Shown one piece after another: positions 8,315 through 14,319 of a stretch of 64,000 bases of DNA (positions are counted from its first letter, which is position 1; each line of letters starts with the position of its first letter). Location of the stretch: assembly GCF_021026295.1 (NCBI RefSeq), contig NZ_JAJNDA010000017.1:1-64000 (forward strand). Reading direction: 5' to 3'. Below the pieces are notes generated by a model, which was not told the DNA's origin, did not search any database, and was given only the letters and a program-made list of their open reading frames with translations. A program made the position numbers and the translations under genes. Origin of the DNA: Actinomycetospora soli. GTDB lineage: Bacteria; Actinomycetota; Actinomycetes; Mycobacteriales; Pseudonocardiaceae.

Positions 8315-11300
8315 TCAGTCCGCCGTCCCCGACGCGCCGTCGGCGCCACGCTCGCCGCCGGGTGACCCGCCCGCGCCACCGGTGCCTCCCCCCGACGCCC
8401 CGGGCGCGTCGATGGTGTCGACGTCGCTCGCGTCGCCACCGTCTCCGCCGTCGCCTCCCGAGCCGGTCGTCCCGGGGGAGGTGGTGGTCGTGTCAGCGCT
8501 CTCGGCGCTGCCCGTCCCGCCGGCACCGCCCGCGCCACCGGCCCCGCCGTCACCGCCGACGCTGTTGGGGAAGCCGCTGGTCGAGGTCCCGGCGTCGCCG
8601 CCGTCCCCGCCGTCGCCGCCGTCCCCGCCGTCCCCGGGGTCGGCGACGGCCGCGCCGTCACCGGTCGCGGTGGCGTTCCCCCCGGCCCCGCCGGTGCCCC
8701 CGGCGCCACCTCGCCCGCCGGCCGAGAGCGAACTGCTGGACCCGGCGGAGCTGTCTCCGGCGGACCCGCCGGCCCCGCCCGTGCCGCCCGTCCCGCCCGT
8801 GCCTGCGGTCGCGGTCGCGGCGCCGGCGCTGGAGCCGGTGCCCGACGTGGCGCTCGCCGTTCCGCCCGCCCCGCCGGCGCCACCGGACCCGCCGGTCCCG
8901 CCGAGGTTCACCTCGCCCGGTCCGGTCGACCCGCCGACGCCTCCGGAGCCCCCGGAGCCGCCGTCGCCGCCGGCGGCGGTCGCCGCCCCGCCGGTGCCCG
9001 TGGTGCCCGGCTCGCCCTGGACGCCGTCGACCGTGCGGGTGCCGCCCGCCCCGCCGTCGCCGCCCGTGGCAGTGGCGTTCTGTCCGGCGCTGCCGGCGAG
9101 ACCGGAACCGCCGGCGCCGCCGAAGTTCTGCTCGTTCCCGACGGCCGGGGTCGCCGGTGCGCCCGCGGCGCCGTCCGTGCCGTTCTCGCCGCGGGCGGTG
9201 GCGGAGCCGCCGGCGCCCCCGACGCCGGGATCGGCCGACGCGGTGCCGTTCGGCGCGAACCCGCCGGCGCCGGTCCCACCCCGGCCGGCGGTGGCGGAGG
9301 CGTTCCCACCCCGTCCGCCGTCGCCGCCGGTGGCGACCACGGTGTTCGTCGCGGAGTCGTAGGTCCCCGTCCCGACGCCACCCGCGCCGCCGTCGCCGGC
9401 GCCGGCTGTGGCGTTCCCGCCCCGACCACCCTCGCCGTCGGTCGCCGTGCCGCCCGGGCTGGTGGTGGCGGTACCGCCGTTGCCGCCCGCCCCGCCGGTG
9501 GCGCTCGCGGCCCCGGCGTCGCCGCCGTCCGACCCGGCCGAGCCGGGGGCACCGTCGGCGGTGGTCGCCGACGCGTTGCCGCCCTGGCCCCCGGCGCCAC
9601 CGGTGGCGGTGGCCTCGCCGTCGGAGCCGCCCGGGCTGCCGGCCTGTCCGGCGTCGGCGGTCGCGGCGCCGCCTGCACCGCCCGCACCGCCGGTGACGTC
9701 GAGGGAACCGCCCGGCCGGACGTTGGCGCTGTCGGCGGAGCCGCCGGCGCCGCCGGCACCACCGGTGGCGGTGGCGTCGCCGCCGTCCCCGCCGGCACCC
9801 GCCGTCGTCGTGGAGGCGCCGTCGCGGATCTCCGTCCCGGTGCCTCCCGCTCCTCCCCGACCGCCCGCCGCGGTCGCCGCGCCACCTGTCCCACCGGGAC
9901 CCTCGACGGCGGAACCGTCGACGCCGCTGATGACGCTCGGCCCGCCCGGGCCGGACCAGCCGGCTCCGCCGGTGGCGGTGGCGTCGCCGCCTCGTCCGCC
10001 CGCGCCGGGGTTCGCGGTGGCGGTCCCGGAGGCGGCGCGGCCGCCGGCGCCGATGCCGCCCTGACCGGCCGTGGCGGTGGCGTTGCCGCCCTGCCCGCCG
10101 TCGCCGCCCGTCGCGGTGGCGTCCTGGCCCCGTGCGCCGACGATGTCCTGGTCGGCGCCGTCCCCTCCGGTACCGCCGGTGGCGGTCGCGTTCCCGCCGA
10201 CCCCGCCCGCGCCGCGGCCGAGCCCCGTCCCGGTGAGCACGAGTCCGCCGTCACCGCCGCGGCCGCCGGTCGCGGTGGCGTCCTGCCCCGCGGTCCCGTT
10301 CCCGGTCGTGGCGTCGGTGCCGTCGTCGCCGGTCGCGGTGGCGTCCCCGCCCCGACCACCGGCCGCCAGGTTCCGGCACTGGCCGTAGCAGATCGCGGTG
10401 CCGCCGCTGCCGCCGTTGCCGCCGATCGCGTTCGTTCCAGTGGCGTCCCCGCCCCGGCCGCCGTTCGCGACGTTCGTGCACACCCCGAGGCAGTACGCGG
10501 TGCCGCCGTTGCCGCCGTTCTCCCCGGCCCGGCCGTCGGCTCCGATGGCCACGTTGGTGCAGGTGCCGATGCAGTAGGCGGTGCCGCCCCGGCCCCCGTT
10601 CACCCCGGGCTTCCCCACCGCGACGTCGGTGCAGGTGCCGAAGCAGAACTCGGTGTTCCCGGTCTTCGAGGAGTACGTCACGAAGCCGTCCCCGCGGGTC
10701 ACCGTGTAGCCCGACCAGGACGTCGGGGCCCACCCCCTCGGGGCCTGCTTCCCCGACGACGCCGGCGAGTTCCCACCGGTACGTGTCAGCGTCGCGACCG
10801 GCCCGGTGCCCTGGTCCCTCGCGGCGGCGTGCACCGCTCCGGTCCGGTCCACCGCGACCACCGTCGGGGCGAACCCGACCGGCACCGACCCGCCCGAGGT
10901 CCACCCGCCGGAGGAGGTCGGCACGATCGCCGAGACGGTGCCCGAACCCGTGTCCGCCGTGAGGACCCGCTTCGACACCGCGTCCCACACCACCGCCACC
11001 GGCGTCGCCCCGACCCCGACCGTCGCGACCTGACGCAGCCCGCCCCGGCCGTCCGGGACGAACACCCGCACCACCGACGCGACCGGGTCGGCCTGGAACA
11101 CCGTCCCGGACACCTGGTCCACCGCCACCCCGTGCGCCGACCCCACCGCCGGGGCCGAGGACCCACCCGACCGGACCACCTGCGGTCCGACCGTCCCCGA
11201 CGACGGCAGCACCGAGAACGGGAGCGCCGAGGACAGCGCCACCGGCACGGACACCTCCGGCGGCGACGGCGCGAACCCCAGCGCCAACGCCAGCGCGGCC

Positions 11301-11362
11301 GGGACGCCGACCGAAGCCGCCGCCACCCGACGTCGAGAAACCTTCCGATGACGACCCGCCAC
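8315..11362 (-). CDS. Secreted glycine-rich repeat protein (PGRS-like) with N-terminal propeller-like domain
   Basis: A 1015-residue exported protein. I start it at GTG 11362 (GAGGGG upstream), giving a basic n-region and hydrophobic AALALALGFA core. Residues ~50-235 resemble beta-propeller blades (HGVAVDQVSGTVFQADP, VAVVWDAVSKRVLTADTGSG, APTVVAVDRTGAVHAA). Residues ~237-327 carry four C-x-G-x-C motifs (CFGTC, CIGTC, CLGVC, CYGQC) at 24-36-residue spacing. From ~330 to the end it is almost wholly GGxGG, GGAGG and GGDATATGG repeats, like mycobacterial PE_PGRS tails but with no PE domain. There is no LPxTG or C-terminal anchor. Function is unknown; a cell-surface or matrix role is inference. 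A NarL-type two-component system lies immediately upstream on the same strand. Confidence 0.8.
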   Translation of the reverse strand: MAGRHRKVSRRRVAAASVGVPAALALALGFAPSPPEVSVPVALSSALPFSVLPSSGTVGPQVVRSGGSSAPAVGSAHGVAVDQVSGTVFQADPVASVVRVFVPDGRGGLRQVATVGVGATPVAVVWDAVSKRVLTADTGSGTVSAIVPTSSGGWTSGGSVPVGFAPTVVAVDRTGAVHAAARDQGTGPVATLTRTGGNSPASSGKQAPRGWAPTSWSGYTVTRGDGFVTYSSKTGNTEFCFGTCTDVAVGKPGVNGGRGGTAYCIGTCTNVAIGADGRAGENGGNGGTAYCLGVCTNVANGGRGGDATGTNAIGGNGGSGGTAICYGQCRNLAAGGRGGDATATGDDGTDATTGNGTAGQDATATGGRGGDGGLVLTGTGLGRGAGGVGGNATATGGTGGDGADQDIVGARGQDATATGGDGGQGGNATATAGQGGIGAGGRAASGTATANPGAGGRGGDATATGGAGWSGPGGPSVISGVDGSAVEGPGGTGGAATAAGGRGGAGGTGTEIRDGASTTTAGAGGDGGDATATGGAGGAGGSADSANVRPGGSLDVTGGAGGAGGAATADAGQAGSPGGSDGEATATGGAGGQGGNASATTADGAPGSAGSDGGDAGAASATGGAGGNGGTATTSPGGTATDGEGGRGGNATAGAGDGGAGGVGTGTYDSATNTVVATGGDGGRGGNASATAGRGGTGAGGFAPNGTASADPGVGGAGGSATARGENGTDGAAGAPATPAVGNEQNFGGAGGSGLAGSAGQNATATGGDGGAGGTRTVDGVQGEPGTTGTGGAATAAGGDGGSGGSGGVGGSTGPGEVNLGGTGGSGGAGGAGGTASATSGTGSSAGAATATAGTGGTGGTGGAGGSAGDSSAGSSSSLSAGGRGGAGGTGGAGGNATATGDGAAVADPGDGGDGGDGGDGGDAGTSTSGFPNSVGGDGGAGGAGGAGGTGSAESADTTTTSPGTTGSGGDGGDGGDASDVDTIDAPGASGGGTGGAGGSPGGERGADGASGTAD

Positions 11363-11422
11363 GGCTGTTACCCCTCGTGAGACCCCGCGACAGGACCCGG
11401 TCCCCCGACCACCCCGTCGCAC

Positions 11423-11446
11423 GCGTGATCAAGACTGTGATCACGC
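11423..11446. promoter_or_regulatory. Inverted repeat upstream of the glycine-rich gene
   Basis: GCGTGATCA-AGACTG-TGATCACGC: perfect 9-bp arms around a 6-bp centre, about 60 bp upstream of the glycine-rich gene start and 53 bp past the response-regulator stop. Position and symmetry suit a dimeric regulator site; the response regulator next door is the obvious candidate, by inference. Confidence 0.5.
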
Positions 11447-11498
11447 ACGGCAGATCGACAAGCGACCTAAGTCCTGTCACATGCGTCCGAACGAGTGA

Positions 11499-12137
11499 CT
11501 ACCGCGTCAGATGGCGTACCACCGCCAGGACGCGGCGGTGGTCGTCGGCGTCGTCGGGCAGGCCCAGCGCCTCGTAGATCCCCGAGACGTGCGCGACGAC
11601 CGCCTTCTCGGTGATCCCGAGCCGACGGGCGATCGCCGCGTTGCTGCGCCCCTCCGCCACGAGCCCCAGCACCTCGCGCCGCCGGGCCGAGAGCCGCTCC
11701 ACCCCGTCGTCGCGCCGGTCGAGCATCGCGGTGACGACCTCGGGGTCGAGCGCGACGTCCCCGGCCCCGACCCGCCGCAGGTCGCGCACGAAGTTCTCGA
11801 CGTCGGCCACCCGCTGCTTGAGCAGGTAGCCGACCCCGCGCGGCCGCGCGCCGAGCAGTTCGAGCGCGTACTGCCCGTGCACGTGCTGGGACAGGACCAC
11901 CAGCCCGACGTCGGGGCGCACGGCCCGCACACGGATCGCCGCCCGCAGCCCGTCGTCGGTGCGGTCGGGCGGCATGCGGATGTCGGTCAGCACGAGCTCG
12001 GGGCCGAGGCGCACGGCCGCGTCGACCACCGATGTCGCGTCACCGACGGCGGCCACGACGTCGAAGCCCTCGCGCCGCAGGAGCAGGGACAGCCCCTCGC
12101 GCAGCAGGGCCTCGTCCTCGCCGATCACGACCCGCAC
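11499..12137 (-). CDS. NarL/LuxR-family DNA-binding response regulator
   Basis: A 212-residue two-domain regulator. Receiver: acidic pair E7/D8 (IGEDEALLREG), phospho-acceptor Asp52 in LTDIRMP, and the conserved Lys in YLLKQRV near 102. C-terminal LuxR-type HTH: LSARRREVLGLVAEGRSNAA then GITEKAVVAHVSGIYEALGL. I start at GTG 12137 because the receiver fold begins there; upstream residues are the kinase tail read in another frame. It overlaps the histidine kinase stop by 13 nt, so the pair is translationally coupled. The target is likely local: the glycine-rich gene lies just downstream and both intervening promoters carry palindromes. Confidence 0.92.
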   Translation of the reverse strand: MRVVIGEDEALLREGLSLLLRREGFDVVAAVGDATSVVDAAVRLGPELVLTDIRMPPDRTDDGLRAAIRVRAVRPDVGLVVLSQHVHGQYALELLGARPRGVGYLLKQRVADVENFVRDLRRVGAGDVALDPEVVTAMLDRRDDGVERLSARRREVLGLVAEGRSNAAIARRLGITEKAVVAHVSGIYEALGLPDDADDHRRVLAVVRHLTR

Positions 12138-13828
12138 GGCAGCTCCGCGCTCAACGTCGTCCCGCGCCCGTCGGGGCTGTCCACCCGGAAGCGGCCGCCG
12201 AGCGCCTCGACCCGGTCGCGCAGGCCCCGCAACCCGGTCCCGCCCGTGGCGACGGCCCCGCCGCACCCGTCGTCGGCCACGACGACCCGCAACGTCCCCG
12301 CCGCCCGGTGCAGGCCGACCTCGAGCGTGGACGCCCCCGCGTGCTTGACGGCGTTGGTGATGGCCTCGGCGACCAGGTGGAACGTCGTGCCCTCGACCGA
12401 GGGCGGCAGCCGTGCCCCGTCCGCGTCGTCGGTGGCGTCGAGCGTGGCGCGCAGCGGGGTCCGGGCCAGCATGTCCTCGACGGCGGCCCGCACCCCACGC
12501 TCGATGAGAAGCGCGGGCATGACGCCGGCGACGATGAGGCGGACCTCCGCGGCCACCTCGTCGACGTCCCGGCGGAAGGCCTCGAGCTCGGCCGGGGTGC
12601 CCTGCGCGGTGCCGGCGCGCAGGGCGAGCAGCACGAGCCGGCTCTGCAGGCGGTCGTGCAGGTCGCGCGCGAGCCGGCGGCGTTCGCGGTCCCCCGCCTC
12701 GACCAGGCGGGTCCGCGACTCCCGCAGCTGCTCCTGCTCGGCGAGCAGCCGCGCCGTGAGCCGCTCCCGGTCCACGGCGATCGCCACGACACGGCCCGCC
12801 GCGCGCACCGTCTCCGGATCCGGCTGCAGCGTCGGGTCGTGGACGATCGCCCCCACGGCCCGGCCCCCCAGCTCGATCGGCACGAGCTCCCGGCCCGGCG
12901 GGACGACGGCGGGTCGGCCCTCCCCGTCCACCCAGCGGCCGTCATCGCCGCGGAAGGCCAGGGTCAGCGACGGATCCCCCAGCGCCCGGGCCAGTGCGGG
13001 CCCGACCTCGCCGCGGCCGCGGTCGGTCGTCCCCAGCCACATCCCGAGCTCCTCGATCCCCATCGTGCGGGCGAAGCCGCCGAGTGCGATGCCGGTGGCG
13101 AACGCGACCGGCACCCCGGCCAGGACGGACACCTGGAACCAGTCGACGAGCCCGGGGTCGACCGTCATGACGCGGTAGAGGTTGCCGGAGACCACCACGG
13201 CGACGACGGCGCCACCGCCGTAGAGGTAGAGCGGTGCCAGGACGGTGCGGTCGGCGGCGGACGCGGCGCGGAGCCTGCGCACCAGCAGGAACGCGGTCGC
13301 GAGGATCACGACGAAGGCGCAGGTGGAATTGACCGCCCGGCCGACGAACAGCAGGTCCGGGCGGTCGGCGACCACGAACGGCGACGCCGGGGACCACAGC
13401 CAGACCGGTGCCTGGAGCACGGTGGTCGTCACGTACCCCCCGGCGACGAGGACACGCGGACCCCGCTCGCGCACGCGGCCCGAGGGGAACGACAACAGGA
13501 CGTGCAGCAGGATCGCCACCGGCACGGTCGCGACGACGATGCCGACGCCGACCAGGGCCGGGACCGGGGTGGCCGCGAGCGCGCAGAGCAGCCACACCCC
13601 GCCGCCCGCGCTCAGCAGCGGCCCGATCCGGCTCCCCGGCCGTCGGGACCACGCCACCAGGCCGGCCCCGAGATAGATCCACGCGGTCACCACGTAGGAG
13701 AGTCCCGACGCGGCGATCGCGGCCGTGGTCGGGACGATCAGGAGCGCCACGACGACCCCGCCGGCCAGCCCGAACGCCCCGAGCTGCCACAGCGCCGTGA
13801 CCGGCGCGCCGGTGATCGAACGCCGCAC
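12125..13828 (-). CDS. Sensor histidine kinase, NarL-type (HisKA_3)
   Basis: A 567-residue membrane kinase. The first ~260 residues contain six to eight hydrophobic helices (GLAGGVVVALLIVPTTAAI, ALVGVGIVVATVPVAILLH, AFVVILATAFLLV and others) with no large extracellular domain. A GAF-like linker follows, then the dimerisation motif ERRRLARDLHDRLQ near 380 (phospho-acceptor His) and a HATPase with NAVKHAG near 490 and DDGCGG near 521. It forms an operon with the overlapping response regulator. Its promoter, shared with the divergent small gene at 13948, contains a perfect 14-bp palindrome that may be an autoregulatory site. The signal is unknown. Confidence 0.92.
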   Translation of the reverse strand: MRRSITGAPVTALWQLGAFGLAGGVVVALLIVPTTAAIAASGLSYVVTAWIYLGAGLVAWSRRPGSRIGPLLSAGGGVWLLCALAATPVPALVGVGIVVATVPVAILLHVLLSFPSGRVRERGPRVLVAGGYVTTTVLQAPVWLWSPASPFVVADRPDLLFVGRAVNSTCAFVVILATAFLLVRRLRAASAADRTVLAPLYLYGGGAVVAVVVSGNLYRVMTVDPGLVDWFQVSVLAGVPVAFATGIALGGFARTMGIEELGMWLGTTDRGRGEVGPALARALGDPSLTLAFRGDDGRWVDGEGRPAVVPPGRELVPIELGGRAVGAIVHDPTLQPDPETVRAAGRVVAIAVDRERLTARLLAEQEQLRESRTRLVEAGDRERRRLARDLHDRLQSRLVLLALRAGTAQGTPAELEAFRRDVDEVAAEVRLIVAGVMPALLIERGVRAAVEDMLARTPLRATLDATDDADGARLPPSVEGTTFHLVAEAITNAVKHAGASTLEVGLHRAAGTLRVVVADDGCGGAVATGGTGLRGLRDRVEALGGRFRVDSPDGRGTTLSAELPCGS

Positions 13829-13871
13829 GGCCGAAGAGTCGCAGACCTGCCGCCCACCGGTCTACGCGGAC

Positions 13872-13885
13872 GGGACCTAGGTCCC
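13872..13885. promoter_or_regulatory. Perfect palindrome in the kinase promoter
   Basis: GGGACCTAGGTCCC, 44 bp upstream of the kinase start and 62 bp upstream of the divergent GTG at 13948. Two further short inverted repeats follow: GGGAG-TGAA-CTCCC (13896-13909) and GGGGG-CAA-CCCCC (13919-13931). Confidence 0.5.
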
Positions 13886-13947
13886 CTCGACAACCGGGAG
13901 TGAACTCCCTGGTGAGCAGGGGGCAACCCCCGTAGCGTCCGCCAGTC

Positions 13948-14319
13948 GTGAGCACCCCGACCGACCGCCACCACGGACCGCCCGGAGGCCTGCTCTTCAC
14001 CCCGGCGACCGCCCCCTTCCCGCTGCCCCGACGCCCCCTCCCGGCCGCGCCCGTCCGGGGCCCCGGACCGGGGTGGGTGCAGGTCGGGCCGGCGGGGCGC
14101 GACGTCGACGAGATCGAGCGCGGGTTCGCCGCCGCCTGGCGGGACGCGCCGTGGCCCGCCCGGCCCTGGCAGATCCTGGCGGCGGCCGACGCGGGCGGGG
14201 TCGACCTGCGCACCCGGGTGGCCCTGCTCGAGCTGCCCGCCCGCACCTACCGCTCGCCGCGGGAGGTCGCCGCGGTGCTCGCACGGCTCCCGCCCGCGCA
14301 CGCCCGCCGCCGGGACTGA
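13948..14319 (+). CDS. Hypothetical protein
   Basis: A 123-residue protein I do not recognise. It has a Pro-rich N-terminal third and a compact helical C-terminal part with aromatic residues (FAAAWRDAPWPARPWQILAA, then RTRVALLELPARTYRSPREV). No signal peptide or membrane segment. GTG start, divergent from the two-component system across a palindrome-rich 119-bp promoter region, so it may belong to the same regulon. Confidence 0.55.
   Translation: MSTPTDRHHGPPGGLLFTPATAPFPLPRRPLPAAPVRGPGPGWVQVGPAGRDVDEIERGFAAAWRDAPWPARPWQILAAADAGGVDLRTRVALLELPARTYRSPREVAAVLARLPPAHARRRD

Follow-up and report, generated by a model that had tools for sequence, protein, structure and literature searches.

The closest described counterparts of the protein studied here are the PE_PGRS proteins of mycobacteria, which carry a long GGxGG tail, occur in many copies and vary in length. 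Their PGRS domains have resisted structural study, and a sandwich of polyglycine-II (PGII) helices has been proposed as the fold (PMC9436101). On the regulatory side, DevR and OsdR are NarL-type regulators whose two-fold sites have GGGAC/GGGCC half-sites; the OsdR consensus is AGGGCCGATCGGCCCT, and the predicted OsdR sites include AGGGACCTTCGGCCCC (PMC5069765). We analysed a stretch of 64,000 nucleotides of Actinomycetospora soli (positions 1 to 64,000 of contig NZ_JAJNDA010000017.1, hereafter the window; about 77% GC, contig C8 of the 6.52-Mb genome G000), in which the genes of a two-component system (TCS) are followed on the same strand by a gene for a Gly-rich exported protein.

A first-pass annotation had taken this TCS for a dedicated system of the Gly-rich gene. 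On balance, we judge it fairly probable that the locus belongs to an autoregulated envelope regulon with an exported Gly-rich PGII-bundle scaffold, and not to a private system. The features on which the argument turns are the following.

13872..13885, no strand: GGGACCTAGGTCCC, kinase-promoter box proposed for the regulator, centred at -50 relative to the start codon and common to the divergent side
12125..13828, minus strand: sensor histidine kinase, 567 aa, HisKA_3 and HATPase_c, with a hydrophobic multi-pass N-terminal part
11499..12137, minus strand: NarL/FixJ-type response regulator, 212 aa, Pfam Response_reg and GerE, closest solved chain VraR
11462..11475, minus strand: degenerate box copy AGGACTTAGGTCGC, centre at -106 from the start of the Gly-rich gene
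11423..11446, no strand: inverted repeat GCGTGATCA-N6-TGATCACGC of the first-pass annotation, not the shared site
11391..11415, minus strand: highly conserved leader segment, after the promoter and ahead of the start codon
8315..11362, minus strand: gene of the Gly-rich exported protein, 1015 aa, GTG start at 11360-11362, 11 homologues of like layout
10781..11128, minus strand: head (residues 79-194), predicted to have about three blades of beta-propeller type
10376..10645, minus strand: four C-x-G-x-C motifs, residues 240-329, four in 12 of 12 family members
8318..10333, minus strand: Gly-rich tail, residues 344-1015, predicted in part to be a PGII/polyproline-II (PPII) helix bundle

The distribution of the box carries the argument. 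The 6.52-Mb genome has exactly two copies of its 12-bp core GGACCTAGGTCC, where 0.57 are expected from base composition and the backwards control gives none: the kinase promoter and the region upstream of an unlinked Gly-rich paralogue on contig C67. When YR is allowed at the centre (GGACCYRGGTCC), six sites are found in this genome. Three of them lack a CCCGGG core, namely the same two and a site before the M23 peptidase gene of the kinase-regulator paralogue on contig C12. Over 18 Actinomycetospora genomes, the full 14-mer without a CCCGGG core occurs at nine places, with one in the backwards control; four lie in kinase promoters, three upstream of one and the same PF00144-type lipoprotein hydrolase gene, one in front of a second PF00144 gene, and one inside an open reading frame (ORF) of G011. 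Several of these places lie between divergent genes, where the other gene could be the target. Within the genus, the 14-mer tracks the kinase. Orthologues of the window kinase (clade A, 76-84% identity) occur in five of the 18 genomes, and a second clade (B, about 48-52% identity) comprises kinases of G000 (C12), G005 (two), G007, G011 and G012. The 14-mer is present in 6/8 genomes with a kinase of either clade (about 48% identity or more) and in 0/10 others (Fisher p 0.0015, a value that ignores shared ancestry). In four of the five clade-A kinase promoters the box is centred at -49/-50 (-74 in G010), as expected for autoregulation. G001 has a 93% identical hydrolase and no kinase of either clade; its promoter, when aligned, keeps one half-site and has three mismatches, all in the other, a remnant that came from this alignment, while a scan allowing two mismatches gave no box there. 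In G003 the match to the PF00144-type hydrolase (L124 / L162) is split in two, and one of the pieces has an in-frame TGA.

For the Gly-rich genes, promoters were scored with a box matrix trained without any Gly-rich promoter, against a background of 298 promoters. The promoter of the C67 paralogue scores 14.5, which no background promoter reaches, and that of the window gene 11.0, reached by 1/298. The syntenic Gly-rich promoters of G003 and G007 score 9.2 (11/298). All four have the box centre between -104 and -106. The first-pass annotation had seen a palindrome in the promoter of the window gene as in that of the kinase; the copy that resembles the kinase box lies not at 11423-11446, where it was placed, but at 11462-11475. 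The boxed genes form one clade (support 100/99 in a tree without the G014 copy, whose promoter lies outside its contig and went unscored), which suggests that a single branch of the family was drawn into the regulon. The Gly-rich gene is likely a target of the adjacent TCS.

Several observations weigh against this picture. The box of the window gene itself is imperfect, and seven other Gly-rich promoters that were scored show no box, five of them in kinase-carrying genomes. Good boxes are missing from 4/6 clade-B kinase promoters. The looser 12-mer is not enriched over the 18 genomes (124 places and 114 backwards), and 6/9 further sites of it that were read are not before envelope genes. Outside the genus, the 14-mer occurs in 34/144 other genomes of the family that were searched (control in 13). 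Because it precedes cydA in other genera, its sequence is not private to the window TCS, and a DevR/OsdR-like regulator could read it.

This last point leads to the strongest rival, which we regard as unlikely but serious: the box would be read by another NarL-family regulator, either the C12 paralogue or one like DevR/OsdR, with the window TCS merely a target and its adjacency to the Gly-rich gene incidental. Just upstream of cydA (cytochrome bd oxidase), GGGACCTRGGTCCC was found in five of the eight loci read outside the genus (L185, L188, L189, L190 and L191), the identity of cydA being confirmed by Pfam in one of the five, and the arrangement hints that related genera may have a conserved respiratory regulon. 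The C12 paralogue shares the DNA-binding segment of the window regulator and has a box next to it, and the published OsdR sites given above lend this rival further support. The segment, EKAVVAH, is found in eight of nine regulators compared and reads EKAVVGH in the ninth (the comparison left out those of G015 and of G007 clade B). On the other hand, within the genus the 14-mer follows the presence of the window kinase clade, and its placement in clade-A kinase promoters is that of autoregulation. The core of the box differs from that of DevR/OsdR sites, and among the closest solved chains to the regulator, three VraR chains and NarL stand near the top, whereas DevR is sixth. No hypoxia gene is among the target promoters seen in the genus, whose cydA was not looked up. 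When 28 genomes were searched with the window regulator, the outcome did not distinguish genomes with a box from those without, and another regulator was neither identified nor excluded. In the literature searched, the 12-mer appeared in work on eukaryotic genes, as far as abstracts show; the abstracts retrieved for Actinomycetospora and two-component systems are not about this one, and a search joining Actinomycetospora with glycine-rich gave nothing.

As the first-pass annotation had stated, a kinase and a NarL-type regulator lie just upstream of the Gly-rich gene on its strand: the domains score above the Pfam cut-offs (Response_reg 46.3 and GerE 42.1 bits; HisKA_3 29.7 and HATPase_c 43 bits), the two genes overlap by 13 bp, and 136 bp separate the end of the regulator from the start of the Gly-rich gene. 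The kinase N-terminus is mostly hydrophobic, and no sizeable outer domain is evident, as would suit a sensor that reads its signal within or at the membrane. Next to the clade-B kinases lies a conserved M23 gene in three cases, a CAAX-protease-like gene in two and a PF00144 gene in one. The M23 gene beside such kinase-regulator pairs (L014, which is G000:C12, and L096, L119 and L122) is, in the three other genomes, 77-80% identical to the G000 copy. The M23 peptidase is perhaps the older partner of the TCS.

The Gly-rich gene was examined as a possible spurious low-complexity ORF, and this was excluded by the conservation of the head and the CxGxC region in 12 proteins despite their variation in length. 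The ORF extends over 8315-11422 on the minus strand with its stop at 8315; the best start, GTG at 11360-11362, is preceded by a GAGGGG-like stretch (one change in G007), and the start region is conserved in the three closest relatives. The 1015-residue length and four C-x-G-x-C motifs given by the first-pass annotation are thus correct. All eight cysteines lie inside these motifs and probably form disulfides. The tail, put earlier at about 690 residues, measures 672, with 38% Gly and 53 GGxGG. Protein length ranges from 692 to 1395 aa across the 11 complete family members, one of the 11 homologues being truncated by a contig end. The earlier remark that this combination belongs to no described family agrees with our searches, since neither Pfam (whole window protein and head) nor NCBIfam gave a match. 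The 25-bp leader at 11391-11415 (GGGGTGGTCGGGGGACCGGGTCCTG, minus strand) is almost identical in the four boxed Gly-rich genes, while the upstream reading frames differ. An Rfam scan of 11200-14100, including this leader, gave nothing at the gathering threshold.

The label "PGRS-like secreted" also holds up, with a signal peptide recognised by eye and a PGRS-like predicted fold. AlphaFold models suggest a PPII/PGII bundle for the Gly-rich part, with low confidence in the far tail; by these models the tail probably forms such a bundle in part, and the predicted fold resembles the PGII sandwich proposed for the PE_PGRS Gly-rich domain. Unlike PE_PGRS proteins, the window protein has a signal peptide, a propeller-like head and four CxGxC motifs, Pfam and NCBIfam scans found no N-terminal PE domain in it, and its family was found in Actinomycetospora only. 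To our knowledge, this genus is not known for a mycomembrane. The propeller-like head proposed earlier stands in part: blades are predicted, but only about three, the third with less confidence, and no full ring. In this the head differs from the YVTN surface-layer propeller 1l0q and the designed Pizza3. No Pfam propeller model reaches its cut-off on the three heads scanned, among which only that of G013 shows Lactonase PF10282, at 12.5 bits against a curated cut-off of 21.7. Designed half-propellers pair into a six-blade ring, and the three-blade head might likewise pair with a second copy. The PPII bundles of the springtail (snow flea) antifreeze proteins 7jjv and 2pne show 33-38% identity over the aligned part; they are animal chains of 81-126 residues, and the likeness is one of fold only. 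A role of the bundle in ice binding or desiccation, and not as a scaffold, seems very improbable to us; a shared fold shows no function. The same fold has, moreover, been proposed for PGRS domains (PMC9436101).

The family counts 12 members in 8/18 Actinomycetospora genomes, presence and absence calls being limited by completeness (G014 59%, G004 83%, G008 84%), and has no homologue in 43 genomes outside the genus. In a wider contig scan, 36 stretches matched a pattern; nine were confirmed, all from Actinomycetospora, and 27 were not. The order FAD-oxidase, Gly-rich gene, regulator, kinase and divergent GSDH is conserved in G000, G003 and G007. G015 has the kinase-regulator pair at the same site with no Gly-rich gene after it, G010 has a clade-A pair elsewhere adjoining an M23 peptidase gene, and G001, G016 and G010:C8 have the flanking genes without the islet. 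The G015 regulator (L095 7396-8057) matches in two different frames and may be broken or mis-sequenced. In G007:C27 (L038, L043), two distant family genes lie about 16 kb apart. The gene order whose conservation the first-pass annotation proposed to check is thus kept in three genomes, but nine of the 12 repeat genes are unlinked, with no such kinase beside them within the stretches read, and the pair also occurs without one, which argues against a system of its own. Unlinked homologues were one of the outcomes that the annotation itself had named as refuting it.

Both palindromes of that annotation exist at 13872-13885 and 11423-11446. Taken simply as palindromes, they hardly stand out from chance in this GC-rich window, which has 24 perfect 14-bp palindromes (16-30 in ten shuffles) and 92 inverted repeats with 8-bp arms (65-86 in three shuffles), so that only a comparison could show what they are worth. 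They are unrelated in sequence and so do not make one shared site. The 11423-11446 type occurs one to six times in each of the 18 genomes, with or without the TCS, at 64 places in all against none for a backwards control, although that control includes CTAG, a tetramer seldom met in DNA of this kind. In G007 both 7-bp arms (CGTGATC/GATCACG) are intact around a different spacer; G003 has one altered arm, and the C67 paralogue has lost one of the two. With unrelated sequence, presence in 18/18 genomes and eroded arms, it was excluded as the shared regulator site, the contexts of the 64 places being unread. A second inverted repeat, GGGAGT-GA-ACTCCC, lies at 13896-13909 upstream of the kinase box, with none at the same place in G003. 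A private one-to-one system whose regulator binds both palindromes is the least credible account of all, for all that the gene order is kept in three genomes and the repeat type exceeds its control, because the two sites differ, the second is found irrespective of the TCS, and most family genes are unlinked.

In the envelope regulon that we favour, the overlapping kinase and regulator would sense an envelope condition. The phosphorylated regulator would bind a 14-bp two-fold box, GGGACC-YR-GGTCCC, and presumably activate its own operon. Further targets would be the adjacent Gly-rich gene through a weak box, the unlinked C67 paralogue through a near-perfect one and, in relatives, beta-lactamase-fold hydrolases and an M23 peptidase. 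The exported product would consist of a signal peptide, a small three-blade beta module, which in a pair may close a six-blade ring, and a long bundle of left-handed PGII helices, with the four C-x-G-x-C motifs in its first part. Given the signal peptide, the rigid predicted fold and the variable length, it is most likely a rigid, length-variable cell-surface or matrix scaffold. A fuller version, which we advance only tentatively, holds that this is an independently evolved PGRS-like surface system: genus-specific, multi-copy, length-polymorphic and cysteine-pinned PGII bundles with an ordinary signal peptide and a half-propeller head that may pair. One clade of these proteins would have joined the envelope regulon of an autoregulated NarL-type TCS, both in cis and in trans, by way of a 14-bp box that genes of cell-wall and beta-lactamase-fold hydrolases also carry.

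What is known of PGRS domains comes mostly from pathogens. This free-living genus, whose predicted PGII-type protein has eight defined cysteines, an ordinary signal peptide and what looks like an on-switch, would be a convenient place to test the folding, location and role of such bundles, and the box gives a falsifiable regulon for an otherwise uncharacterised TCS.
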